Shown in pieces: positions 1-9,635 of a DNA stretch of 12,407 nt. The first letter of the stretch is position 1, and each line of letters opens with the position of its first letter. Under the pieces are notes generated by a model. It worked only from the letters and a program-made list of their open reading frames with translations, had not been told where the DNA came from and made no database searches. Made by a program: the position numbers and the translations under genes. The stretch comes from Spirochaeta sp. (GTDB taxonomy: Bacteria; Spirochaetota; Spirochaetia; DSM-2461), in the NCBI GenBank assembly GCA_030635565.1, contig DAOVYP010000028.1:1-12407 (forward strand). Reading direction: 5' to 3'.

Positions 1-1234
1 TGAGGATTTCATCGGTTACCCCCGGAAGCAGGTGTTCGGCTTCGGGGATCATTTCCATATAGAATCTCTCGGCAATATCGTAAAAACCGTGCCATTGCAC
101 ATAATCGGGACCCATCATGGCGAGTCCATTCCGGGCTCTTCTGCCTTCATGGTGCCAGAGATAGAACCAGATCCAGTCCATATGTTCATTGAAGGGGATA
201 TCATCGAGTACTCCGGCTTCCGTCAGCTCTGTGATAATGTCCTTACCGGGAATCGCGAATTTTTCATTGTAAAGTTCAATCCCGGCGTCGTACTGTTGAT
301 AGAAGTTTTCAACGTATTCCGGGCTGTGGCAGGTCATGCAGACTTCCTGCATCGACTTCCTTTTAGCATCGGAATCCTCGGTTTTAAAAGAGACTGCGGC
401 CCTGATATTCCAGGAGAGCCGCTTCCCGATATCATGTGTCCGCCCCTGGTTCAAGGTTGCCGAAACATGACAGGTTGCGCAGGTGGGCGCGGCGCTGTAA
501 TCCCGGCCCAGCACCCAGGACGAGGAATCCATATTCATCTCGTCCGTATGGCTCCGGTAGGCGATATTGTGCTTCGATTCCGTATAAACTTCCATCTGGG
601 GATGGTCGGGTCCAAGGTGACAGCGGCCGCAGGTTTCGGGGGCCCTTGCCTGGGCCAGAGAGAAGTCGTGCCGGGAGTGACAGGCGGCGCAGGAACCGGT
701 GGATCCGTCGGGATTAACCCGGCCGATTCCGAAATTGGGCCATGTATCGGCGGTGAGTTTTCCGTCATCGGCGACTTTGACGAAGGAACCATGGCACTGC
801 TGGCAACCGTTCACCGAAGCGCTTGGACCTTCCACTACTTCCCCGAGGAAATTGTCCAGGCTGCCCAGCACTTCACCGGCTTTGGCGTGATGGGAAGCAG
901 TGAATTGTTCCGCCTCCAGAGCATGGCATTCGGCGCAGTCCGTCGGGGATACGATTGTCGCGACAAAAGCGTCAAAATGCTCGAAACCGTCGATATCACC
1001 CTCATCGGCAAAGTGGCACTCTGCGCAACCGACGCCGACGTCGCTGTGCCCGCTTCCCTTCCAACTGGCGACGATGGAGGGAGTTTTTTTGGTATGACAT
1101 TCCAGGCAGCGTCTCGAGTCCGAAGTCACGACGGCATTTGATGTGTTCAGAATCAGGGCCTGGTTTTTCTCGATTGAGCATGAGACCGTCAGGGCCAGCA
1201 TGACCAGGATGGTCAGATAAATGCTTGTCCTCAT
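1..1234 (-). CDS. hao: Octaheme c-type cytochrome, hydroxylamine oxidoreductase (HAO) family, 3' end outside window
   Basis: The first 411 residues are in the window; the C-terminus lies beyond base 1. Start ATG at 1234 has a GGGAGG ribosome site six bases upstream. Residues 1-19 form a short hydrophobic signal ending LALTVSC-S, a relaxed lipobox (Cys19), so the mature protein may be a lipoprotein on the periplasmic side. Eight CXXCH heme motifs begin at C43, C70, C100, C144, C182, C202, C252 and C299. After them comes the HAO-family C-terminal signature: DWIWFYLWHHEGRRAR (353-368) then MMGPDYVQWHGFYD. Family members oxidise hydroxylamine or hydrazine, or run in reverse as nitrite/hydroxylamine reductases. 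In HAO the oxidative forms carry a heme crosslinked to tyrosine; whether Tyr378 is equivalent cannot be settled here. It is the last visible gene of the nqr-like operon, 16 bp after the ferritin-like gene, so a reductive role fed by that complex is my inference. The heme count and family are clear; the substrate is not. Confidence 0.88.
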   Translation of the reverse strand, partial: MRTSIYLTILVMLALTVSCSIEKNQALILNTSNAVVTSDSRRCLECHTKKTPSIVASWKGSGHSDVGVGCAECHFADEGDIDGFEHFDAFVATIVSPTDCAECHALEAEQFTASHHAKAGEVLGSLDNFLGEVVEGPSASVNGCQQCHGSFVKVADDGKLTADTWPNFGIGRVNPDGSTGSCAACHSRHDFSLAQARAPETCGRCHLGPDHPQMEVYTESKHNIAYRSHTDEMNMDSSSWVLGRDYSAAPTCATCHVSATLNQGRTHDIGKRLSWNIRAAVSFKTEDSDAKRKSMQEVCMTCHSPEYVENFYQQYDAGIELYNEKFAIPGKDIITELTEAGVLDDIPFNEHMDWIWFYLWHHEGRRARNGLAMMGPDYVQWHGFYDIAERFYMEMIPEAEHLLPGVTDEIL

Positions 1235-1250
1235 TTTTTCCTCCCTCGCA

Positions 1251-1688
1251 TCAGTAATAATCTCGAAGGCTTCTGAGCCTTTCCGCGTGTTCGGCCTCAA
1301 AAACGGCCAATCCCTTGATGAATTCCTTGAAATCGCCCGATACCGAGGCTGCCGCGTTGTTGTACATGGCCTCGGCGTGTACTTCTCTATTTATGGCCAG
1401 GGATATCAGGTCCGCTATCGACATTCCCTCATCGTACTTGTCAGGCATGGATAATTTGAACTCGGGCGGGAACTGGATAAAGGCCCGGCTATTACCGGCA
1501 TCGTATTCCCTGAGCAGTTGGGCATGGGCCTCTTCCTGTTTTTCCAGGAGCTCGGCAAGTGCCTTTACCGGTTCGGCGAGATTTTTCTTGAGCATGACCC
1601 GGTAAAAAGCGGCCGAATCCTCTTCGAATTCCACCGCAAGCTTCAGAAATTCGGCGATGGACAGGAAATTTTCCTTAGAATTTGTCAT
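1251..1688 (-). CDS. Ferritin-like / rubrerythrin-type diiron protein, no rubredoxin domain
   Basis: This is a 145-residue, mostly helical soluble protein with no signal peptide, so probably cytoplasmic. It has the four-helix diiron pattern: E22-x6-Y29 in helix 1, E52-x2-H55 in helix 2, E102-x6-Y109 in helix 3 and E131-x2-H134 in helix 4. This matches the ferritin-like domain of rubrerythrins, which reduce peroxide or handle iron. The C-terminal rubredoxin [Fe(SCys)4] domain of classical rubrerythrin is absent; there are no cysteines, so any electron donor is a separate protein. I chose ATG at 1688 (MTNSKENF), which has GAGAGG upstream and overlaps the nqrF stop by 14 bp; a start further up at 1721 would run deeper into nqrF. 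It lies between nqrF and the octaheme cytochrome gene, so it is co-expressed with them. A role in protecting the complex or supplying heme iron is only inference. Confidence 0.85.
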   Translation of the reverse strand: MTNSKENFLSIAEFLKLAVEFEEDSAAFYRVMLKKNLAEPVKALAELLEKQEEAHAQLLREYDAGNSRAFIQFPPEFKLSMPDKYDEGMSIADLISLAINREVHAEAMYNNAAASVSGDFKEFIKGLAVFEAEHAERLRSLRDYY

Positions 1689-2751
1689 ACCATATCCTCT
1701 CTTCCGGAACGCCCTTGGCAATAAGGACGGCCGTGACGGCGTCGATCATTATGGGAGGTCCGCACAGGTAGGCTTCGCCGTGGATATCCCCGGGTAACTC
1801 TTTTTCCATGACAGTGTGAATGAAGCCGGTTTTCCCTGTCCAATCATCAGCAGGCTCCGAAAGTGCCGGGAAGTATTTGAGTCCTGATTCACGAGCGGCC
1901 AGATCGACGAATTGTTCATGATCGTAGAGATCTGCAGTACTTTTGGCGCCATAATAGAGCCAGAGCATCCTGTTCATGTTATGTCTGTCCCAGTAGAGCA
2001 GAATTGACTTTATGGGAGCCAGACCGACTCCTCCGGCGACGCAGATTATGTCTCTGTGTGAATCATGCCTCAGAAAGAAGTCGCCGTAAGGTCCGGAGAA
2101 TTCCAGGGGTTCCCCGACAGAGAGGGAATGGATGTAGGTAGAGCCCAGTCCATCCGGAATGAGTTTTACGTTTATCTCGATTCGGTCGTGCTCGTCGGGA
2201 CAGCTGGCCATGGAGTAGGCCCGGTAATCAATCTCCGGTCCGGCAGGTATCTTGACCTGGACGTATTGACCCGGTTTGTAGGCAATCTCATCGTCCCCGA
2301 ACAGGGTAATCCCGACTCTCCTGATATCGACAGTCAATGGATCAAAAACAGTGATTCGCCCTGTGTATTCCCTGATATTCAGGTACTCTTCGGGGATGTA
2401 CAGCTTCATGTCGTTCTTGACTTTCAACTGACAGGTGAGTCTGTAGCCTTCCCGTTTCTCCGCTGAGCTGAGCATCAGTTCTTCAGTGGGAAGAACCCCG
2501 CCTCCGCCTTCGGTGACGATCAGCTTGCAGTATCCGCAGGTTCCCTTGCCGCCGCAGGCCGAAGGAATGAAATACTTGCTTTCGAACAAATTTCTCAGAA
2601 GTGTCGAACCGCCCCTGGCCTGAATCTCCTTGTCGTCGTTGATGGTAAGGGTGCAGGGACCGTAATTGTTGATTACCCTGTCCATGAAAATCAGGAGCAG
2701 CGCGATAATCAGGGCGAAGGAATTCGAAAAAATCAGGGCTTTGAGAATCAT
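1675..2751 (-). CDS. nqrF: Na+-translocating NADH:quinone reductase subunit F (NADH-oxidising flavoprotein)
   Basis: This 358-residue protein is the NADH entry point of an Nqr complex. An N-terminal membrane anchor (about residues 3-22) is followed by a plant-type [2Fe-2S] domain with C66, C72, C75 and C107. A ferredoxin-reductase module follows: RAYSMAS (177-183) binds FAD, GGVGLAP (240-246) and LCGPP (329-333) form the NADH side. The order anchor, 2Fe-2S, FAD, NADH is diagnostic of NqrF and differs from RnfB, which carries several [4Fe-4S] clusters. The protein is somewhat shorter than the roughly 400-residue enterobacterial/Vibrio forms. ATG at 2751 overlaps the nqrE stop as ATGA, which fixes the start; the open frame upstream of this is only the antisense-frame shadow of nqrE. 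By family knowledge it takes a hydride from NADH through FAD to the 2Fe-2S centre and then to the intramembrane iron-sulfur cluster of NqrD/E. Confidence 0.95.
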   Translation of the reverse strand: MILKALIFSNSFALIIALLLIFMDRVINNYGPCTLTINDDKEIQARGGSTLLRNLFESKYFIPSACGGKGTCGYCKLIVTEGGGGVLPTEELMLSSAEKREGYRLTCQLKVKNDMKLYIPEEYLNIREYTGRITVFDPLTVDIRRVGITLFGDDEIAYKPGQYVQVKIPAGPEIDYRAYSMASCPDEHDRIEINVKLIPDGLGSTYIHSLSVGEPLEFSGPYGDFFLRHDSHRDIICVAGGVGLAPIKSILLYWDRHNMNRMLWLYYGAKSTADLYDHEQFVDLAARESGLKYFPALSEPADDWTGKTGFIHTVMEKELPGDIHGEAYLCGPPIMIDAVTAVLIAKGVPEERIWYDKF

Positions 2752-3326
2752 AAGCCGGCTACTCCGGTAAATCCAATGAATCCCAGAGCCATGATTCCGG
2801 CAATAATGGCGGTAATCCCCGGGTCCCCGAAATTTCTCAGGGGTTTGGAGAATACAAGATTCCTCCTGAGTCCGCCCATGGTGATGATGGCCAGCAGCCA
2901 CCCGACACCGGATCCGAAGGAGTACAGGACGGTTTCGATGAAGCCGTAGGATCGGAGGACCATAAAGAGAGATATTCCCAGGATGGCGCAGTTGACCGTA
3001 ATCAGGGGCAGGAAGATTCCGAAGGAAAGATAGAGTATGGGAAAATATCGATCGATGACGATTTCCAGTATCTGGACGATGGTTGCTATTGTCACGATGA
3101 AGACCAGGAACTGAAGGTATTCGAGTCCCAGAGGCACCAGAATGATATTCTGTATGAGCCAATTCGCGGATGCGGTGAGGGTCATCACCATGGTGACGGC
3201 CATCCCCATACCGGCGGCAACGTGAATCTGCTTGGAGATGGTGACGAAGGGGCACATCCCGAGGAAGTACGTGAGTGCGATGTTGCTGGTGATAACCGAG
3301 GCGAAAAGCAGGAGAACCGGATTCAT
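2748..3326 (-). CDS. nqrE: Na+-translocating NADH:quinone reductase subunit E, integral membrane
   Basis: This 192-residue, very hydrophobic protein has about six membrane helices and belongs to the NqrE/RnfA family. Signature stretches are FLGMCPFVTISK near residue 21 and NCAILG near 112. Cys25 and Cys113 in these motifs correspond to the family cysteines that help hold an intramembrane iron-sulfur cluster shared with NqrD. The length is close to the family norm (about 195-200). Both ends are fixed by 4-bp ATGA overlaps: with nqrD upstream at 3323-3326 and nqrF downstream at 2748-2751, implying translational coupling. NqrE and RnfA are close homologues; I call it NqrE because the partner F and B subunits are of Nqr type. 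Confidence 0.93.
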   Translation of the reverse strand: MNPVLLLFASVITSNIALTYFLGMCPFVTISKQIHVAAGMGMAVTMVMTLTASANWLIQNIILVPLGLEYLQFLVFIVTIATIVQILEIVIDRYFPILYLSFGIFLPLITVNCAILGISLFMVLRSYGFIETVLYSFGSGVGWLLAIITMGGLRRNLVFSKPLRNFGDPGITAIIAGIMALGFIGFTGVAGL

Positions 3327-3991
3327 GACTCACTCCTCCGGTTTCGAATGGTGTTGATAATCAGAATAAAGGTTCCCAAAGCGAAGAAGGCCCCTGGAGG
3401 AATCGTGAAGAGGGCGATGCGCGGCAATTCACCGGGTAATACTGTAAACCCGAGAATCGATCCGAAGCCGATCAACTCCCTGAATATCGATATGAGTGTC
3501 AGCGAGAACGTGTAACCCAGCCCGACTCCCAATGCGTCCATCACCGAAAGACCGACGGAGTTGTTTATGGCATAGGCTTCGGCCCGGCCCATGAGTATGC
3601 AGTTTGTAATAATCAGGGCGACATAGGGTCCGAGAGCCTTGCTGGCTTCCGGAAGAACTATCTTGAGAATCAGGTCTACCGTGATAACCAGGCTCGAGAT
3701 GATGAGCATATACGCAATCATTCTCACCCGATCCGGTATCAGGTTTCTGAGTGAGCTGATAATGGCTGAATTGACCACCAGAACCAGGGTGACCGCCGCA
3801 CTCATCACGAGGGCATTGCTCACGAGGTTGGTGACGGCCAGTGTGGAGCAGAGTCCCAGCATCATGCCGAAGATGGGATTGTTGTGCCAGACCCCTTCTT
3901 TGAACACCATCCAGCTTTTGGTTTTGAGAAGCTTGTATCCCTTCTGGGGGATTTTCAGATTCACCGAATTCTGATTAGCCGAATCACCCAT
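3323..3991 (-). CDS. nqrD: Na+-translocating NADH:quinone reductase subunit D, integral membrane
   Basis: This 222-residue membrane protein of the NqrD/RnfE family has about six membrane helices after a polar N-terminal stretch of some 30 residues. Recognisable parts are NNPIFGMMLGLCSTLAVT (residues 37-54), TNCILMGRAEAYA (129-141) and the MDALGVGLGY loop near 151. Cys48 and Cys131 match the two cysteines that, with those of NqrE, bind the intramembrane iron-sulfur cluster, so all four ligands are intact in this operon. Start choice: ATG at 3991 has GGGGG six bases upstream. A TTG at 3997 in the same frame would overlap the nqrC stop by 4 bp but would leave no gap to the G-run, so I prefer the ATG; the difference is two residues. 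Confidence 0.92.
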   Translation of the reverse strand: MGDSANQNSVNLKIPQKGYKLLKTKSWMVFKEGVWHNNPIFGMMLGLCSTLAVTNLVSNALVMSAAVTLVLVVNSAIISSLRNLIPDRVRMIAYMLIISSLVITVDLILKIVLPEASKALGPYVALIITNCILMGRAEAYAINNSVGLSVMDALGVGLGYTFSLTLISIFRELIGFGSILGFTVLPGELPRIALFTIPPGAFFALGTFILIINTIRNRRSES

Positions 3992-3993
3992 AT

Positions 3994-4563
3994 TCAACCC
4001 CCGAAATCCCGTTTCAGGTTCTCAAGCCCCTCGTTTATCAGCGCTTCGAGGGCCTGGCTCGTTTTCGTTGCTCCGGAGATGGCATCAACTTCATTGGCCG
4101 CTATTGCGAATTTAACAATCCTGACCTGCGGCTCGATGTAGAGCCCGGTAAATGAGTCCTGGAAGGCCTTTTCGGAAATACGGCCGCCCAGTCCCGGCGT
4201 CTCTCCCTGGGAAAGAACCCTGAGTCCGAAAAGCTCCGATTTGTCAATTTCCACGGCGATAAGGACTTCTATCAGGCTCCAGAGACCCGGTCCCCGGGAC
4301 TTGAAGGCGACAGTATCGCGATCCGCTTCCTTCCCGACGTAATAGACATGAGTCCCCCTTTCGACCGTATCAAACCAATCGGAGAAATCCGATTCCACGG
4401 TCTCTTCGTTGAAGGGATAGCCGTACAGATTCAGAATGTCCGCGTAAAGACGCCGGTTGAAAACCGCCGAGGCCTTTTCATACGCGAGATTTCCGCCGGT
4501 TAGCAGCAGGGTGCAAATCGTGAAGAGGACAAGAAGGAAAACCACCATCCGGAAATCTTTCAT
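3994..4563 (-). CDS. nqrC: Na+-translocating NADH:quinone reductase subunit C, covalent-FMN protein
   Basis: This 189-residue protein has one N-terminal membrane helix (about residues 5-23) and an extracytoplasmic FMN-binding domain. GPGLWS (91-96) and GETPGLGGRIS (120-130) are NqrC/RnfG landmarks. DAISGATKTS (160-169) contains the flavinylation motif SGAT, with Thr166 the expected phosphoester site for FMN. It is clearly shorter than the usual NqrC (about 255 residues) and closer to RnfG length. ATG at 4563 overlaps the nqrB stop as ATGA. FMN attachment requires an ApbE flavin transferase, and no apbE lies in this window. As the only flavin domain of the complex facing outside, it is the natural hand-off point to the operon's octaheme cytochrome; that hand-off is inference. 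Confidence 0.92.
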   Translation of the reverse strand: MKDFRMVVFLLVLFTICTLLLTGGNLAYEKASAVFNRRLYADILNLYGYPFNEETVESDFSDWFDTVERGTHVYYVGKEADRDTVAFKSRGPGLWSLIEVLIAVEIDKSELFGLRVLSQGETPGLGGRISEKAFQDSFTGLYIEPQVRIVKFAIAANEVDAISGATKTSQALEALINEGLENLKRDFGG

Positions 4564-5486
4564 GCGCCGGCCTTCCTGAAACGCCTCTGAAGTATCCCGT
4601 AATCGATGATGCCCCCGAAGATTCCCGCCAGAATAACGGCAAAAAGAATACCATCCGGAAAGGCTGAAAATCGACGGATAACGGCTCCGGCTATACCGGC
4701 GACGATTCCGGAGATCCACCGGCCCCGGACGGTTCGGGATATCGTCCGGTGATCCGGGAGGATGAAGAAGGCCGTCAGCAGTGTATTCCCGATCAGCAGG
4801 TCGGCGGCGCCCAGGGCCGTTTCGGGAGAAACCAGATTGATGAGAAAAAATGTGGCTGCATAGGAGAGAATGAAGGTGAAACAGATCCGATAATCAACGG
4901 CTTGCAGAAGCAGCAGGAGAATGCCGAGGACGATGATGACGAGGGGATAGGCGGCGCCGGCAGTCTGGGGAAAGGCGCCTCTGAGCAGCGCGGGAGCCAG
5001 GCCGGAGCCTGATTCCGAAAAAAGGATGTATGGGTTGTCCACTGTTGGAACACCGGCACCCCAGTGAGAAAATCCGGTAAGAACTCCGGAAAAGGGATAG
5101 ACATAGCTGTAGCCGAAAACCTGGGAGAAACTTAAGGTGGCGAATGTCCAGCCGAAGGCCGTGGGAGAAACAATCGCCCTGCCGTGCCCTCCGAAGAACA
5201 CCACGATGATAATCAGGGTGAAAATGATGGCCAGGGATGACTGCAGCAACGGAAGTGCCGGTGGAAGTACGAGGGGGATGAGAAGCCAGGCCGTGACGGT
5301 ATACCCTCTGTCTTTCTCTTTCTGTATTCTTCTGGCTCCCTCTTCAATAAGGACGCCCAGTATGCAGGAGATTGCCAGGAGGGCGGCAAGTCGCCATCCG
5401 TAGCGCCCGATCCCCAGGACATACAGGGGTAAAACCGCCAGAGAGATGATGTAATCGTTTCTCTGGGATCTATGAAGCGTCGGCAT
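4560..5486 (-). CDS. nqrB: Na+-translocating NADH:quinone reductase subunit B, short form with degenerate FMN-attachment motif
   Basis: This 308-residue polytopic membrane protein of the NqrB/RnfD family has about 8-10 helices. NqrB-specific matches are GYTVTAWLLIPLVLPPALPL (residues 61-80), FFGGHGRAIVSPTAFGW (97-113) and the C-terminal FPDGILFAVILAGIFGGIIDY (276-296). Vibrio-type NqrB is about 410 residues, so this form is roughly 100 shorter, mostly at the N-terminus and in the loop after residue 120. That loop normally carries FSGAT with the threonine that binds FMN covalently. Here the matching place reads PFSGVLTGFS (131-140), with the SGAT threonine replaced, so covalent FMN here is doubtful. 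ATG at 5486 is chosen for a perfect GGAGG five bases upstream; it overlaps the preceding gene by 17 bp. In the family this subunit forms the cation channel and quinone site. Confidence 0.9.
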   Translation of the reverse strand: MPTLHRSQRNDYIISLAVLPLYVLGIGRYGWRLAALLAISCILGVLIEEGARRIQKEKDRGYTVTAWLLIPLVLPPALPLLQSSLAIIFTLIIIVVFFGGHGRAIVSPTAFGWTFATLSFSQVFGYSYVYPFSGVLTGFSHWGAGVPTVDNPYILFSESGSGLAPALLRGAFPQTAGAAYPLVIIVLGILLLLLQAVDYRICFTFILSYAATFFLINLVSPETALGAADLLIGNTLLTAFFILPDHRTISRTVRGRWISGIVAGIAGAVIRRFSAFPDGILFAVILAGIFGGIIDYGILQRRFRKAGA

Positions 5487-6477
5487 TGATGCCTCCGATT
5501 CCTGTACTGAGCGGGATATTGGACGGACAGACATGGGTGCAGAGCCCGCAATGAAAGCAGAGATCGGCTCCGAGGGAGTCCAGATCTTCAGCACCACTCT
5601 CAGCGAAGTGGTACAGGATGCTGGGGGAAAGCCCCGCCCGGCATACTGATGAACATGCCAGGCAGTTGCAGCAGGGACGCCGGGTGTCCAGGGAGTCGGA
5701 AAAGTTCCTGTAAGACAGTTTCCTTCGAACCGAGGGACGGTTCAGAATCCCGGTCCTGGTGACATCAAGGCGCCGCATCTCACCTGCTATGGCTATCACG
5801 GCGGTTTCCGGTTCGATGGTTTCCTCAGGATCCAGTTCTCTGCGGGTCAGGGGATTGAATATCACCTGATCTTTCTCCGGCGTCACATTCGTTTTGGAAA
5901 GATATTCAGAAAGAAATGAAACGATATCCTTTACCTGTGAACCCCCGGGGGCCCTGACCCGGAAGATCAATTCAGATCCCCAATGAACATGGATGTACCT
6001 GACATCATCAAATGTTTTGCCGCAGACGGCCTGGTACAGTCTCCCGGCTTCGGCAGCTGTGAGAACGATGCCTTCAAAAGAGCTTCTATTGAAATCTCCG
6101 GTAAAATCTCCCTGATACCCATCGAGACCGGCAATCACCACATGTTTTACCCCGAAGCGGGATTTGATTGCCGTCATAGTGGTATCCGGATCTCCGATGA
6201 GATCGAGATCTTTCTGTTCCCGCATACCCTGAAGAGGGAGATCGGCCCTGAAATCAACAGTCAATCGGTCCGGTTGTGAACTGGCCCACCAGCTGCGCTT
6301 TTCAGGGGTTATGAGTTCCAGGAAATCCATTAAGTTCGAAGTATCAGGAGATTTGATTGTCGAGGTACTTTTCATGTCCAAAGCTTCGTACTTCAAATCA
6401 GTTCCTTGAGGATCTTTCAAAATCACCATTCTGAAAGATTCTCCAGTATGGGGTCGAAAAGTTATTTTCTTATACAT
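5470..6477 (-). CDS. rnfC: RnfC-like iron-sulfur subunit replacing NqrA
   Basis: This 335-residue soluble protein sits first in the operon, where nqrA normally lies. Its C-terminus is that of RnfC: two [4Fe-4S] motifs, C269-x2-C272-x2-C275-x3-C279 and C307-x2-C310-x2-C313-x3-C317, the second ending CPSNIPL. True NqrA has no iron-sulfur cluster. Residues about 137-190 (GIVLTAAEAGRLYQAVCGK onward) resemble the domain shared by NqrA and RnfC. The first 130 residues are divergent, and I see no glycine-rich NADH/FMN loop of the kind found in full RnfC (about 430 residues or more), so it probably does not oxidise NADH itself. Start: ATG at 6477 has only a weak AGAAAAG site and lies in the loop of a perfect inverted repeat; ATG at 6429 (17th codon) is an alternative. 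It overlaps nqrB by 17 bp. Family identity of the C-terminus is firm; the subunit's exact role is inferred. Confidence 0.82.
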   Translation of the reverse strand: MYKKITFRPHTGESFRMVILKDPQGTDLKYEALDMKSTSTIKSPDTSNLMDFLELITPEKRSWWASSQPDRLTVDFRADLPLQGMREQKDLDLIGDPDTTMTAIKSRFGVKHVVIAGLDGYQGDFTGDFNRSSFEGIVLTAAEAGRLYQAVCGKTFDDVRYIHVHWGSELIFRVRAPGGSQVKDIVSFLSEYLSKTNVTPEKDQVIFNPLTRRELDPEETIEPETAVIAIAGEMRRLDVTRTGILNRPSVRRKLSYRNFSDSLDTRRPCCNCLACSSVCRAGLSPSILYHFAESGAEDLDSLGADLCFHCGLCTHVCPSNIPLSTGIGGINADAS

Positions 6478-6490
6478 GAAATAACTTTTC
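6456..6490 (-). repeat. Perfect 12-bp inverted repeat spanning the rnfC-like start codon
   Basis: Arms GAAAAGTTATTT (6456-6467) and AAATAACTTTTC (6479-6490) are exact reverse complements separated by 11 bases that contain the predicted ATG (6475-6477). In the mRNA the start codon would sit in the loop, and the only Shine-Dalgarno-like bases (AGAAAAG) in the stem. It could be a translational control hairpin or an operator. The symmetry is certain; the function is not. Confidence 0.6.
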
Positions 6491-6500
6491 TAAGGATCTG

Positions 6501-6534
6501 GGTAATTTTAAAATCGGGGATTTTTAAAATTACC
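6501..6534. repeat. Perfect 13-bp AT-rich inverted repeat in operon leader
   Basis: Arms GGTAATTTTAAAA (6501-6513) and TTTTAAAATTACC (6522-6534) are exact reverse complements with an 8-base loop. On the plus strand six T residues follow (6535-6540), which looks like a weak intrinsic terminator. No plus-strand gene ends just before it; it lies in the minus-strand leader, 24 bp before the ATG at 6477. An operator, or a barrier to antisense transcription, are both possible. Confidence 0.55.
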
Positions 6535-6540
6535 TTTTTT

Positions 6541-6640: not shown

Positions 6641-7738
6641 TTACATATCTTGAGCCAGTTCCCTGTACAGGGACAGAAGAAAGTCCCGGTTATCGGCTGA
6701 GATATAGTTCATGGTTCCGCCCATCCGGTTGAAGGTTTTCAGGAATCGCAGGTAGTAGGCGGGGTCTGTCATGGGCGGTTCTCCCTTGCTCCAATCCCAG
6801 GACGATTCTGCCAGATCAACAACATAAATCCTGTGATTCTTAATCTTTCTGCCCTGCTGCAGCATGAGATTCTGAGACATGGAGAAAGATTTTTCGAATA
6901 TCATGGGAGACATCACGGCGGATCCGACGGACAGATATACCCCGCCTTCCAGGCGGGAAACACTGCCGGCAAAGCTGAGGAAATCCCGTTCCGCCGTACG
7001 TCCAATCGCTGCACCGCAATTCGCCGGATGGGTGTAGATTATATCGTGACCGAACATGGGAGGGCCGGTAAACGGGATCCCCAATCGAAACGCTTCACCC
7101 TGCAGGCCGTATTCCTTGTGATTGTGATGAACGGCCATAAAACCCGGCTTAATCTCGAAATCCTGAATCAGGGAGAGTAAATCCGCGGCTGCGGCGGCTT
7201 GTGCGGGATCTTTCCCGGACAATTCGTTGATTTCAGCTATCAGGGAGGATGCATCGGGAATGGTTAAACCGTCATTTAATACCATCGCCCCGACGGATTC
7301 GCCATAGCCTCTGCCCTCGTAGGCTCCAACAGCAATGGCGAGGTTCAAATAGAAACCGGTTTCTTCCCAGATGCCGAACTGTCCCCGTTCGACATTTTGC
7401 CTGACGTCTTCACTGCTCTTCCCCTGGAAGGCGAATTCCCAGTCGTGGATGATACCCGCCCCATTGGTGGCCAGGTGTGTAATCCAGTTTTTATTGACCA
7501 TGGCCCGAAGCACCGGAGTCATTCCGTTCTTGATGGTATGGGCACCGAAGGCCAGGATGACAGGGGCTCCGATCTTGCGGGCGTTCAGAATCTCTCCGGC
7601 AATCTGCCTTATCAATTCCAGCGTTCCGGGAGGAAGAGGTGACGGTGTATCTTCCGGATGAATGAAATCTCTGTCGATACTGACCTTGTTCTCCCTGGAG
7701 GAGAGGGGCGCAAATTTAATCTTTTTTCTATCAAACAC
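6641..7738 (-). CDS. Conserved protein of unknown function in heptose-type sugar locus
   Basis: This soluble 365-residue protein has no signal peptide or membrane segment. It starts at GTG (7738), chosen because AGGAG lies seven bases upstream; it overlaps the kinase-phosphatase gene by 8 bp, so the two are translationally coupled. Distinctive motifs, likely a nucleotide- or sugar-binding active site: AFGAHTIKNG (63-72), THLATNGAGIIHDWE (87-101), GQFGIWEETG (119-128), AVHHNHKEYG (202-211), FGHDIIYTHPANCGAAIG (229-246) and YLSVGSAVMSPMIFEK (268-283). The layout recalls deoxyhypusine-synthase-like NAD-binding proteins, and I have an unverified recollection of similar proteins next to heptose-synthesis genes in Geobacter. 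No reaction can be assigned. The conserved His/Asn/Asp clusters suggest an enzyme rather than a structural protein. It follows the fusion gene directly and should act in the same pathway. Confidence 0.78.
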   Translation of the reverse strand: MFDRKKIKFAPLSSRENKVSIDRDFIHPEDTPSPLPPGTLELIRQIAGEILNARKIGAPVILAFGAHTIKNGMTPVLRAMVNKNWITHLATNGAGIIHDWEFAFQGKSSEDVRQNVERGQFGIWEETGFYLNLAIAVGAYEGRGYGESVGAMVLNDGLTIPDASSLIAEINELSGKDPAQAAAAADLLSLIQDFEIKPGFMAVHHNHKEYGLQGEAFRLGIPFTGPPMFGHDIIYTHPANCGAAIGRTAERDFLSFAGSVSRLEGGVYLSVGSAVMSPMIFEKSFSMSQNLMLQQGRKIKNHRIYVVDLAESSWDWSKGEPPMTDPAYYLRFLKTFNRMGGTMNYISADNRDFLLSLYRELAQDM

Positions 7739-9635
7739 CTGATGACTCCTGTTGGTTATTGAAGAGGATGTCTTCGAGTTCAGCTGTATATGAGAAATCG
7801 GGTATGAGAATGTCGGAACCGGCCAGCACCAGACGTGATCGTTTGGCAGGGTTGATACCGTGACGTTTCACCTCGTCACTGATGAGACCCACGCAGAAAC
7901 CGCCGCGTTTCCGGGTCTCGCGAATCTCTACAGGACCGTCTCCGAATGTGACGATACCGGACGCATGGTTCTCTCCGATTTCCGCGATGATTTTTCTGAC
8001 AACCATTCTCTTCGGATCCTCATCGGGATTCCCGGTGGATCCGAATATCCCCCCGTCAAAGAAGGAGGCGTATCCCATGAGCTCCGCCTCCCTTTGGACA
8101 TCAACCCCGTCGGTACCGCTGGCCAGAAAAAGTGTGATTCCTTTCTTTTTCAGTACATTGAGAAAGGAAATGGATCCCTTGATGGTAAAGTCCTCCGACT
8201 GGAGAGAACCGGATTCAATACGCCGGATCCGTTTGTTCACCATTTCCAGGAGCCTGGTGTTGAAAATCGCCTTGTACTCGGCCGCAGAGAGGATATCATC
8301 CTCCGGAACATAGCCATTGTCCCTGACGAGTTTCACCAACCCCATCATCTGATTGATGGTCTGAATCCCGGTTGTCTGTTCTATGTAAAGAGAAACCTGT
8401 TTTGATATGTGTTTGTATATTTCTTCATCAACATGAGTCCGCTCTTCCCCGAGTATGGATTCCACCATCATCGGTTCCATGATTCTCTCCCACCCCTCAC
8501 GAAGGGTTGAGATTGTCCCATCATGATCAAAAAGAGCATATTCAAATTTCCGGTGATGTAAATTCGTTTCGATTATCTCGATTTCACTGTCTTTGAAATA
8601 ATGCCGATTCGAAGCGATGGATGCTTTATCGGTATTATACAGAGAATCGGGTTCCTCGCCCGGTTCCAGGATTTCCTCGGGAGAGGCTGTTCCGGCCTGG
8701 TACAGTTTCTGCACTGTAATCGTGGCGACGATGTTACCGAATTCCATGGCTGAGCCGGCATCGTGTCCCGTACTGAGGGCTGCCGCAATTCCGGCGAGCA
8801 TGCTGTCACCGGCGCCTACGCTGTCTTTTCTGTCCGTAGTGTGAATACCCATAACCGACTTGATTCCAGTTTGATCCGCCAGAATGCATCCACGGCTTCC
8901 GCGGGTCAGAAACACCGCCCGATCCCATCGCTTGAAAAGTTGAGATGCCGTTTCTTCAGCGGCAGAATCCAGGTTGGTATTGCCGAGAATCCCGGCACCT
9001 TCACTTTCATTCAACTTTCGGATGGTGTTGGGATATAAATCATTGTAATCCCTGGAATCCACAATGACGGGTATGGTGCATCGATCCTTGAGAAACCCGG
9101 TAAGGCCCATCCTGAAGGACTCGGTATGTAAACCGTTCCTCAATTGCTGATTGATTATCAGCAAATCATAGGATTCTATCCCGTCAATCAGGCGTTTGAG
9201 TATCTCGGATGTGATACTGTTCCGGGGAATATTGCCGTTCCCGATATCCAGACGGGGAGCTTCCTGATGGTTCTCATAGATTTTCGAATATACGTTAGTC
9301 TGCCAGTCGACAGACTGCTCGATCAGATTCTGTGTACCGATACCACAGGCGTTCATCGCTCTGAGCAATTCACGCCCGTACATATCCCCGCCGGTTATTC
9401 CGAAGGCGTCTACGATTCCGACTCCAATAGCCTTGAGATTATGGGCAACATTGGCGGCTCCTCCGAGATCCATGCGGAAATCCCGAACCCCCCGGGTGGC
9501 CAGGCCTGTTTCCACTGATTTCTCGGACAGCGACGGGTCCAGGAAATAGTAAGCGTCCAGGCAGAAATCACCGACGACGGCGATCTTTGCGGAACTGCTT
9601 TTTTCCAGAATTGAAAGAATCTGTTCTTTGTCCAT
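7731..9635 (-). CDS. Bifunctional PfkB/HldE-like sugar kinase fused to HAD-family phosphatase
   Basis: This 634-residue protein has two domains. Residues about 15-325 are a PfkB/ribokinase-fold kinase: VVGDFCLDAYY (20-30), GGAANVAHNLKAIG (58-71) and the signature DSVGAGDSMLAG (271-282) with catalytic Asp277. The GGAANVA element is typical of heptose-7-phosphate kinase (HldE N-domain/HldA). Residues about 362-600 are a HAD phosphatase: DHDGT (370-374), LASGT (504-508) with Ser506, DPKRM with Lys542, and GDGPVE (565-570). All four HAD motifs are intact. In E. coli HldE the kinase is fused to a nucleotidyltransferase; here the partner is a phosphatase, which would combine the HldA and GmhB-type steps, if the substrate is a heptose 7-phosphate. 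A substrate other than heptose is possible. ATG at 9635 has GAGGTG upstream. A LacI operator at 9652-9665 sits 17 bp before the start. Confidence 0.87.
   Translation of the reverse strand: MDKEQILSILEKSSSAKIAVVGDFCLDAYYFLDPSLSEKSVETGLATRGVRDFRMDLGGAANVAHNLKAIGVGIVDAFGITGGDMYGRELLRAMNACGIGTQNLIEQSVDWQTNVYSKIYENHQEAPRLDIGNGNIPRNSITSEILKRLIDGIESYDLLIINQQLRNGLHTESFRMGLTGFLKDRCTIPVIVDSRDYNDLYPNTIRKLNESEGAGILGNTNLDSAAEETASQLFKRWDRAVFLTRGSRGCILADQTGIKSVMGIHTTDRKDSVGAGDSMLAGIAAALSTGHDAGSAMEFGNIVATITVQKLYQAGTASPEEILEPGEEPDSLYNTDKASIASNRHYFKDSEIEIIETNLHHRKFEYALFDHDGTISTLREGWERIMEPMMVESILGEERTHVDEEIYKHISKQVSLYIEQTTGIQTINQMMGLVKLVRDNGYVPEDDILSAAEYKAIFNTRLLEMVNKRIRRIESGSLQSEDFTIKGSISFLNVLKKKGITLFLASGTDGVDVQREAELMGYASFFDGGIFGSTGNPDEDPKRMVVRKIIAEIGENHASGIVTFGDGPVEIRETRKRGGFCVGLISDEVKRHGINPAKRSRLVLAGSDILIPDFSYTAELEDILFNNQQESSGV

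Follow-up and report, generated by a model that had tools for sequence, protein, structure and literature searches.

The operon and its gene junctions

Where would an Nqr/Rnf-type complex send its electrons when its genes run directly into that of an octaheme cytochrome? This question is raised by a 12,407-nucleotide stretch of spirochaete DNA (hereafter the window), which is the entire contig G000:C8 of its host genome, G000. A sequence-only reading had proposed that the complex passes electrons from NADH directly to the periplasm, independently of quinone, for a possible reduction of nitrite or hydroxylamine. The genes form a minus-strand run of eight, from position 6477 to position 1, preceded directly by a repeat:

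5470..6477, minus strand: A, a short, diverged NqrA/RnfC-type protein with two CxxCxxCxxxC [4Fe-4S] sites
4560..5486, minus strand: B, an NqrB/RnfD homolog (PF03116, E 6e-42)
3994..4563, minus strand: C, NqrC/RnfG, the periplasmic covalent-FMN subunit (FMN_bind, PF04205, E 7e-14; NqrC match in the PDB)
3323..3991, minus strand: D, NqrD/RnfE (Pfam Rnf-Nqr), one half of the intramembrane [2Fe-2S] site
2748..3326, minus strand: E, NqrE/RnfA (Pfam Rnf-Nqr), the second half of the intramembrane [2Fe-2S] site
1675..2751, minus strand: F, NqrF, the NADH dehydrogenase subunit (Pfam Fer2, FAD and NAD domains)
1251..1688, minus strand: a small ferritin-like/rubrerythrin-like protein (PF13668 and PF02915 above cut-off)
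2..1234, minus strand: an octaheme HAO-related c-type cytochrome (PF13447, E 2e-27), its C-terminus lost at the contig edge
6405..6535, no strand assigned: a dispersed ~130-bp repeat directly upstream of the operon

From A to the cytochrome, the junctions are overlaps of 17 and 4 bp, a gap of 2 bp, overlaps of 4, 4 and 14 bp, and a gap of 16 bp. Thus, the earlier statement that all eight genes overlap or lie within 16 bp of each other is exact at every junction, as calculated from the ORF ends. A promoter or terminator separating the cytochrome from the nqr-like genes had been named as evidence that would speak against this proposal. Promoter- and terminator-like sites occurred at chance level in the window (8 found versus 10.8 expected and 14 versus 12.6, respectively), and the gap of just 16 bp leaves little space for a terminator before the cytochrome gene; a division of the operon is therefore not supported. 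No Rfam element reached the gathering threshold within the window.

The upstream repeat has at least 30 further distinct genomic places (32 match rows at E≤0.001, with 40 of 69 candidates scored), and eight copies were aligned. The first codons of annotated A fall inside it, and the annotation of A probably carries 27 or 34 surplus residues at its start. Full-length A homologs begin at the equivalents of residue 28 or 35, which places the likely true start at 6396 (TTG) or 6375 (ATG); in the database, this very A begins at residue 17.

Subunit B lacks the known flavin sites

In V. cholerae NqrB, Asn200 and Asn203 bind riboflavin (PMC10643135, PMC9325719), and in A. woodii RnfD, FMN is attached to T156 (PMC11889175). 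Alignment showed that B of the window lacks the threonine for covalent FMN as well as both riboflavin asparagines: N stands in place of the threonine, and A and S in place of Asn200 and Asn203, while the equivalent of Asp346 is kept. The threonine is replaced in 22 of 22 close B homologs, the window counted, and the asparagine pair in all 21 that cover the site, which P0138 does not reach. Three of three distant B homologs from the same homolog list keep the threonine and both asparagines. Among genomic loci, both asparagines are missing in 10/10 of the window's kind, and a Thr/Ser together with both asparagines is kept in 20/23 comparison loci, which are a subset, mostly short and for the most part read for the motif alone (B-type protein searches matched 50 and 158 of 394 genomes). 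The other three comparison loci (G039, G126 and G094) deviate from the motif and have no known cytochrome partner. Furthermore, in a tree of 47 B sequences, calculated with the site columns left out, all 25 flavin-poor sequences fell to one side of a single branch (support 100).

A related group of clusters that encode EB_dh-type or hexaheme proteins departs from this pattern in one position. The aligned threonine is present in 4/4 of their B sequences (L071, L131, L143 and L144), with its GA context and the asparagine pair gone, and because this threonine is retained, B of that group may still carry FMN. Likewise, since the Asp346 equivalent is retained in all aligned B rows except P0136, a flavin could conceivably still bind B in an altered way.

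B also lacks the N-terminal extension of NqrB, which forms the quinone site (PMC12174285). Residue 37 corresponds to position 125 of the NqrB model and residue 56 to chain residue 153, and these offsets mean that ~90 residues are missing from the N-terminus. In A. woodii RnfD, the N123A and D249A variants are reported not to catalyze ferredoxin-dependent NAD+ reduction (PMC11889175), and N123, counted along the alignment, coincides with NqrB Asn203. Judged from the aligned residues, the sites in B that would return electrons towards quinone or NAD are lost.

The flavin-site loss in B is the key feature of this locus that the sequence-only reading had overlooked.

The remaining subunits keep their cofactor motifs

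The FMN site of C is retained in the window (SGATKTS), and [ST]GAT is present in every C copy that reaches the site (13 of 14 copies). All four cysteine columns of D and E, two in each subunit, are kept in 13/13 clusters, and ApbE is present in 6/6 cluster-bearing genomes. F scored 265 bits against the nqrF model TIGR01941, below its cut-off of 295, and its Pfam Fer2, FAD and NAD domains are above cut-off. There is no RnfB among the eight genes; NqrF occupies the input position.

A has ~300 residues and, unlike the cofactor-free NqrA, two CxxCxxCxxxC sites whose cysteines are invariant in 8/8 aligned sequences. Its [4Fe-4S] part was recognized, with no Pfam match to the RnfC_N or FMN domain. 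A predicted model (pLDDT 66) resembles NqrA, RnfC and NuoF among the matches listed, with some RnfC rows tying with NuoF. That A retains two [4Fe-4S] sites while B lacks the riboflavin site to which they would connect counts against a one-way exporter of electrons.

The ferritin-like gene recurs at the same position in G005, G006, G008 and G027, and the G018 cluster is without it. Genes of ~150 aa that adjoin canonical nqr clusters of spirochaetes were also considered as ferritin-like candidates; the one tested showed no Pfam family above cut-off.

The gene set recurs in related spirochaetes

A comparison of gene neighborhoods had been suggested as a check, and it revealed the arrangement in five further, related spirochaete genomes (G005, G006, G008, G018 and G027), several of them with the set split over contigs. 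Linkage was inferred between C45 (A) and C96 (from B on) in G006, between C36 (A-C) and C14 (from C on) in G008, and between C111 (A-C) and C49 (D-F and the cytochrome) in G018; the cluster is broken within the ferritin-like gene in G027 and within the cytochrome in G005. In one G027 cluster, as in G008 and G018, B and the cytochrome are linked across a contig break, and the genomes are 73-91% complete. The heme-maturation genes CcsB/CcsA adjoin the cytochrome in G005, G006 and G027, and the G018 ResB homolog sits on a different contig from its cytochrome.

Sister-group clusters carry other periplasmic heme proteins (EB_dh-type, hexaheme) together with ResB; the G212 contig stops before any heme gene. 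In G150, a frame with one CxxCH (L078:685-1413) lies ~3 kb from a canonical cluster.

Searches for a quinol-oxidizing partner and for quinone synthesis

The sequence-only reading had seen no NapC/NrfH-type quinol oxidase, and this now extends to 0/11 genomes above cut-off, the single weak match being the octaheme cytochrome itself. A dedicated quinol oxidase beyond the left edge of the window had also been named as contrary evidence. Such a candidate was not supported in G005, G006 and G027, where none was recognized by eye or with profiles; ResB/CcsA (CcsB/CcsA) genes stand there instead, followed by unrelated genes.

No menaquinone prenyltransferase (MenA-type UbiA) was found in 5/6 cluster-bearing genomes. 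In G000, the UbiA match was rejected as a MenA candidate, as it is a decaprenyl-phosphate phosphoribosyltransferase above cut-off. The sixth genome, G018, encodes MenA and UbiE, so the absence of quinone is not universal. The futalosine marker PF02621 occurs in 1/11 genomes (G004), barely above cut-off, and unclassified UbiA matches are present in G002, G004 and G007.

The octaheme cytochrome

Eight CxxCH motifs were counted by eye in the 411-residue piece of the window's cytochrome, and the full-length relative in G006 also has eight; a full-length relative lies at L023:4081-5433. The nearest solved relative is 4qo5 (E 3.4e-50 with the single sequence, 2.2e-79 by profile), titled 'Hypothetical multiheme protein' in the PDB, which we take to be the Ignicoccus octaheme cytochrome. 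HAO (1fgj) also matches by profile, well behind 4qo5 (E 4e-39). These results bear out the assignment of an octaheme HAO-family cytochrome at the end of the gene run. An MtrC/MtrF domain is also above the Pfam cut-off, and a lipobox-like LTVSC, seen by eye, indicates that the cytochrome is probably a lipid-anchored lipoprotein. In oxidative HAOs, Tyr467 cross-links the catalytic P460 heme. Aligned via an intermediate sequence, this position is a nearly invariant Gln in the cytochrome alignment; a Gln in place of the catalytic tyrosine fits reduction.

The cytochrome was found in 18/394 genomes of the class at E≤1e-20. It is not always paired with the complex, which is not adjacent in seven further annotated contexts. 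The G197 member of the family lies behind a Rieske/cytochrome b protein, which on gene order would be another electron-input module, and in G150 the family occurs with CcsBA alone.

A proposed electron path and its alternatives

We consider it probable that the operon encodes a one-way NADH exporter, in which electrons would leave from the FMN of C to the cytochrome with no return to quinone or NAD. NADH would be oxidized at NqrF (FAD, [2Fe-2S]), and electrons would traverse the membrane via the D/E [2Fe-2S] cluster to the periplasmic FMN of C. From there they would pass not to B but, by a presumed direct contact, to the neighboring, probably lipid-anchored cytochrome. The latter would be matured by its own CcsB/CcsA pair and would act as, or feed, a periplasmic reductase for a presumed acceptor. 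Ion pumping by the complex is plausible, with D/E as the candidate Na+ (or H+) pump. The idea of a direct, quinone-independent transfer to the periplasm is thus strengthened by the lack of NapC/NrfH in the 11 genomes and of MenA in 5/6, the genes at the left edge, and the flavin loss in B. In contrast, nitrite or hydroxylamine as acceptor gained no such support: NrfA was found in 0/6 cluster-bearing genomes, the HAO name derives from distant similarity, and this cytochrome family also occurs after Rieske/cytochrome b in G197 and with CcsBA alone in G150.

The absence of NrfA also favors an alternative that we regard as rather unlikely, though the best of those considered, in which the cytochrome is no N-oxide reductase and, like MmcA, passes electrons on to acceptors outside the cell or on its outer surface, such as metals, humics or partner cells. 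Indeed, MmcA of the M. acetivorans rnf operon reduces AQDS and Fe3+ in vitro (PMC11024163), and the MtrC/MtrF domain in the window's cytochrome agrees with such a role. However, as a whole the protein resembles the HAO-type catalytic family, and no porin-cytochrome was recognized by eye beside the cytochrome in the contigs read.

Unlikely, and a little more so, is detoxification without energy gain, in which NADH would be spent on clearing nitrite, NO or oxygen species with the help of the ferritin-like protein and without ion pumping. The ferritin/rubrerythrin-like neighbor and, close to the G114 cluster, a gene of rubrerythrin type are consistent with it, as is the report that the Na+ sites and a proposed pumping step are located in NqrB (PMC10643135), the subunit altered here. 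Against it, the intramembrane cluster cysteines of D/E are retained, pumping has been assigned to RnfA/E, with no evidence for RnfD according to that account (PMC11889175), and the G018 cluster exists without a ferritin-like gene.

Reverse flow appears quite improbable. The cytochrome would then oxidize hydroxylamine or another periplasmic substrate, with the ion gradient driving electrons up to NAD+, as its relation to the HAO family and the described reversibility of RNF (PMC12174285) would allow. The nearly invariant Gln at the Tyr467 position, the lead of 4qo5 over HAO, and the place of the G197 cytochrome behind a Rieske/cytochrome b protein, normally an electron donor to cytochromes, all argue against it. 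Least probable of all is mere co-location of an ordinary NADH:quinone or ferredoxin:NAD pump with an independent cytochrome: the D. alaskensis decaheme cytochrome gene precedes rnf and its mutants are described as unaffected in fitness when grown on ethanol, formate or H2 (PMC4841214), G018 encodes MenA and UbiE, and the cytochrome lacks an adjoining complex in seven other contexts, but B has lost its flavin sites and the NqrB N-terminal extension, the operon has no RnfB, MenA is absent from 5/6 genomes, and the gene set is repeated in six.

Relation to known systems

The one-way exporter resembles Na+-NQR in its A-F gene order, NqrF input, D/E [2Fe-2S] cysteines and C FMN site, and differs in a B without the covalent-FMN threonine, riboflavin asparagine pair and quinone-site extension, in an A of ~300 aa with two [4Fe-4S] sites, and in the attached octaheme cytochrome and Ccs genes. 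With RNF it shares the RnfC-type ferredoxin domain in A and a B of RnfD size; unlike RNF, it has NqrF in place of RnfB, an A without RnfC_N or FMN-domain Pfam matches, and a B without flavin sites. A multiheme cytochrome gene also adjoins rnf in M. acetivorans (Rnf-MmcA), where electron transfer from Rnf to the cytochrome has been proposed (PMC11024163), and in Desulfovibrio (rnf-dhcA). As described, these systems are ferredoxin-fed and use other cytochrome families, and the descriptions compared do not mention RnfD flavin loss (PMC4841214, PMC11024163). Two-subunit Nqr/Rnf-like complexes are likewise proposed to transfer electrons one way from NAD(P)H to the outside, and their NqrB/RnfD-like part lacks the flavinylation threonine; as described, they have no D/E module, keep an apparent non-covalent flavin site, and are not mentioned with an octaheme partner (PMC8238504, PMC11334425). 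The cytochrome shares eight CxxCH motifs and a strong profile match with 4qo5 and the HAO family, and is set apart by its shorter length (~450 aa), probable lipoprotein nature, Gln at Tyr467 and operon with an Nqr-type complex. The system also differs from NapC/NrfH-dependent nitrite reductase systems, as no NapC/NrfH was above cut-off in 11 genomes. We found no description of an Nqr/Rnf-type complex combined with an octaheme cytochrome in the open-access literature searched.

More tentatively, we propose that these clusters could represent a separate respiratory class: a six-subunit, one-way, ion-pumping NADH:cytochrome c reductase derived from Nqr/Rnf, in which the B return path is silenced and which would serve as a quinone-free plug-in power source for interchangeable periplasmic heme proteins (octaheme, EB_dh-type, hexaheme), each seen with CcsB. 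If true, some uncultured spirochaetes would have quinone-free respiration with an Nqr relative that lacks the return half of the electron path, and periplasmic acceptors could be respired directly from NADH by anaerobes that show no quinone pathway. The pumping site of Nqr/Rnf is disputed, with a step in NqrB proposed in 2023 (PMC10643135) versus RnfA/E in 2025 (PMC11889175). A complex that seems to delete just the B flavins while retaining D/E allows a direct test of this point: should it pump, pumping does not need the B flavins.

A B subunit without the threonine and asparagine pair offers a sequence marker for finding such systems. B homologs of the window's kind are found in further genera (G018, G027) as well as in additional database records. 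A fifth pairing of B and cytochrome contigs (3,401 bases) was set aside as the sources differ; from equal size and common source, and within the best 120 of 7,973 cytochrome matches, four database B homologs appear to share contigs of 56,763, 48,397, 2,418 and 6,582 bases with close cytochrome homologs.

Operon organization and the sequence beyond the left edge

Eight minus-strand genes extend from position 6477 to base 1; five junctions overlap (by 17, 4, 4, 4 and 14 bases) and two leave gaps (2 and 16 bases). Family searches assigned B, C, D, E and F of the Nqr/Rnf-type complex to NqrB/RnfD, NqrC/RnfG, NqrD/RnfE, NqrE/RnfA and NqrF, respectively, followed by a ferritin-like protein and then a multihaem cytochrome with eight CxxCH motifs. 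F carries its full set of domains (Pfam search); the match of A is confined to a C-terminal ferredoxin part with two clusters (rnfC model positions 360-421). Gene ends and family searches thus bear out the sequence-only reading of eight tightly packed genes ending in an octaheme cytochrome. The assembly (G000; G-numbers denote the spirochaete genomes compared) is 77.75% complete, and the window spans its contig C8 from end to end. Upstream of the operon lie:

6405-6535, ~130-bp repeat immediately preceding the operon; three of its parts look hairpin-like by eye
6641-7738, GSU2086-family protein (family search)
7731-9635, fused PfkB/HAD protein (family search)

The repeat occurs at no fewer than 30 other distinct places in the G000 genome (E<=0.001) and may be REP-like or MITE-like. 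LacI-, ROK- and SIS-like genes, recognized by eye, adjoin the genes at 6641-9635, and together they form a putative sugar-phosphate locus.

The gene set recurs in G005, G006, G008, G018 and G027, partly divided between contigs, and the G018 copy lacks the ferritin-like gene. In G005, G006 and G027, the cytochrome is followed by ResB-like CcsB and CcsA (PF05140, PF01578), by sequence a system II cytochrome c maturation pair, and then by unrelated genes; the ccsB frame of G006 is in two overlapping pieces. Read through these three relatives, the sequence left of base 1 would hold CcsB/CcsA and then unrelated genes, in agreement with the earlier proposal of a quinone-independent route from NADH to a periplasmic N-oxide (or other) reductase.

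Loss of flavin sites in B

Riboflavin contacts reported for V. cholerae NqrB include Asn200, Asn203 and Asp346 (PMC10643135, PMC9325719). A. woodii RnfD is reported to bind FMN at T156 and riboflavin through N123 and D249, and its N123A or D249A variants to be inactive (PMC11889175); counted along the alignment, N123 falls at the Asn203 place. The window's B aligns Asn with the covalent-FMN Thr, Ala with Asn200 and Ser with Asn203, and keeps the Asp. With a cut-off of E<=1e-20, B has 25 database homologues. The Thr is missing from all 22 closest, the window's B among them, and the Asn pair from 21/21 close homologues covering the second site, which the chimeric homologue P0138 does not cover. 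The three distant homologues retain the Thr and the Asn pair. C retains SGAT[KN]TS in 6/6 octaheme-linked genomes, and D/E retain four cysteines in 13/13 clusters. This division into kept versus lost cofactor sites is read directly from the sequence.

B genes were further read in 10 fetched spirochaete loci of the window's kind (G000, G005, G006, G008, G018, two in G027, G089, G212 and G114) and in 23 comparison loci, most of them short and uninformative on haem neighbours beyond B. Both Asn are missing from B in 10/10 loci of the window's kind; the six octaheme-linked loci also lack the Thr, and the four others have it in register in an altered context (TDKT, TKDT, TKET). Thr/Ser and both Asn are retained in 20/23 comparison loci; of the remainder, G039 keeps the Thr and neither Asn, and G126 and G094 keep one Asn with irregular FMN motifs. 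The latter two (loci L044 and L047) have the B motifs SLDGANPM and SGVSPSLL, with no cytochrome partner visible on their short contigs. In a tree built from 47 B sequences after removal of the site columns, all 25 flavin-poor sequences lay to one side of a branch supported at 100; another branch, also at 100, split off the EB_dh/hexahaem group, and the octaheme-type group had support 92. The D+E tree was consistent with the B tree.

Possibly interchangeable haem-protein partners

A haem-protein gene shares a contig with B in 6/10 loci (G000, G005, G006, contig C419 of G027, G089, G114); for three more, those of G008, G018 and contig C382 of G027, the link crosses a contig break, and in G212 the contig ends with no haem-protein gene within it. 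In a second cluster type (G027, G089), A-F are followed by an ethylbenzene-dehydrogenase-type (EB_dh) protein (PF09459), ResB and CcsA, and in G089 a single contiguous stretch holds B through CcsA together with the end of A. G114 combines A-F with a divergent hexahaem cytochrome and ResB, and has a rubrerythrin-like gene nearby. By gene content, the flavin-poor complex thus appears to occur with periplasmic haem proteins of three kinds. In the other direction, G197 has an octaheme cytochrome of the window's family behind a Rieske/cytochrome b fusion, and G150 has one with ResB/CcsA alone beside it. Such swapping of input and output modules would be expected if complex and cytochrome are donor and acceptor, and is not proof of it.

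In G197, one ORF (L106:3639-5270) joins the Rieske and cytochrome b domains, and the octaheme cytochrome directly downstream is divided between two frames. By eye, the EB_dh-type proteins beside ResB/CcsA at L143:4315-5439 and L072:6260-7393 lack CxxCH and show an FCH with one Cys (FCHEE/FCHEA), which may serve a single-thioether or a b-type haem.

Quinone partners and the octaheme cytochrome

Among the 11 genomes tested, none had a NapC/NrfH-family protein above cut-off, and the sole weak match falls inside the octaheme cytochrome. No menaquinone prenyltransferase was found in 5/6 cluster genomes (73-91% complete): G005, G006, G008 and G027 have no UbiA-family protein, and the single one of G000 is decaprenyl-phosphate phosphoribosyltransferase rather than MenA. 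G018 encodes MenA adjoining UbiE.

The cytochrome profile best matched 4qo5 (E 2e-79); Kuenenia HAO-like proteins, HAO and HDH ranked next. Related cytochromes abound: of 8,000 candidates scored, 7,973 passed 1e-10. A nearly invariant Gln stands at the position of HAO Tyr467 (aligned through an intermediate sequence), which in oxidative HAOs is cross-linked to the catalytic haem; because of this Gln, reduction would fit better than oxidation. NrfA was found in 0/6 cluster genomes.

Proposed electron path

The best reading has electrons from NADH travelling through F, D/E and the FMN of C and arriving at the octaheme cytochrome. NADH would reduce the FAD and [2Fe-2S] of F, from which electrons would pass to the [2Fe-2S] of D/E and on to the FMN of C; we infer the last step, from this FMN to the cytochrome, and likewise ion pumping. 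Two published models disagree on the need for B in pumping (PMC11889175, PMC10643135), and therefore the flavin-poor complex would be a natural test of B's role. Reported precedents are MmcA with Rnf in M. acetivorans (PMC11024163), dhcA before rnf in Desulfovibrio (PMC4841214), and Nqr/Rnf-like systems of two subunits that lack the flavinylation Thr and are proposed to work in one direction (PMC8238504, PMC11334425). Searches of open-access papers turned up no system that combines all six core genes, a silent B and NqrF as input with haem maturation of its own.

Other spirochaete Nqr/Rnf clusters

Canonical nqr clusters at L075, L077, L078 and L079 adjoin, by eye, ~150-aa proteins, histidine kinases and response regulators; the single ~150-aa protein searched had no Pfam family over cut-off. 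In G108 (L077:3898-4347) and G022 (L073:4015-4488), F is short (149 and 157 aa), with a match to the [2Fe-2S] half of NqrF, and is followed by a NuoE-like gene and signalling genes (by eye). The short F together with the NuoE-like gene suggests another input partner.
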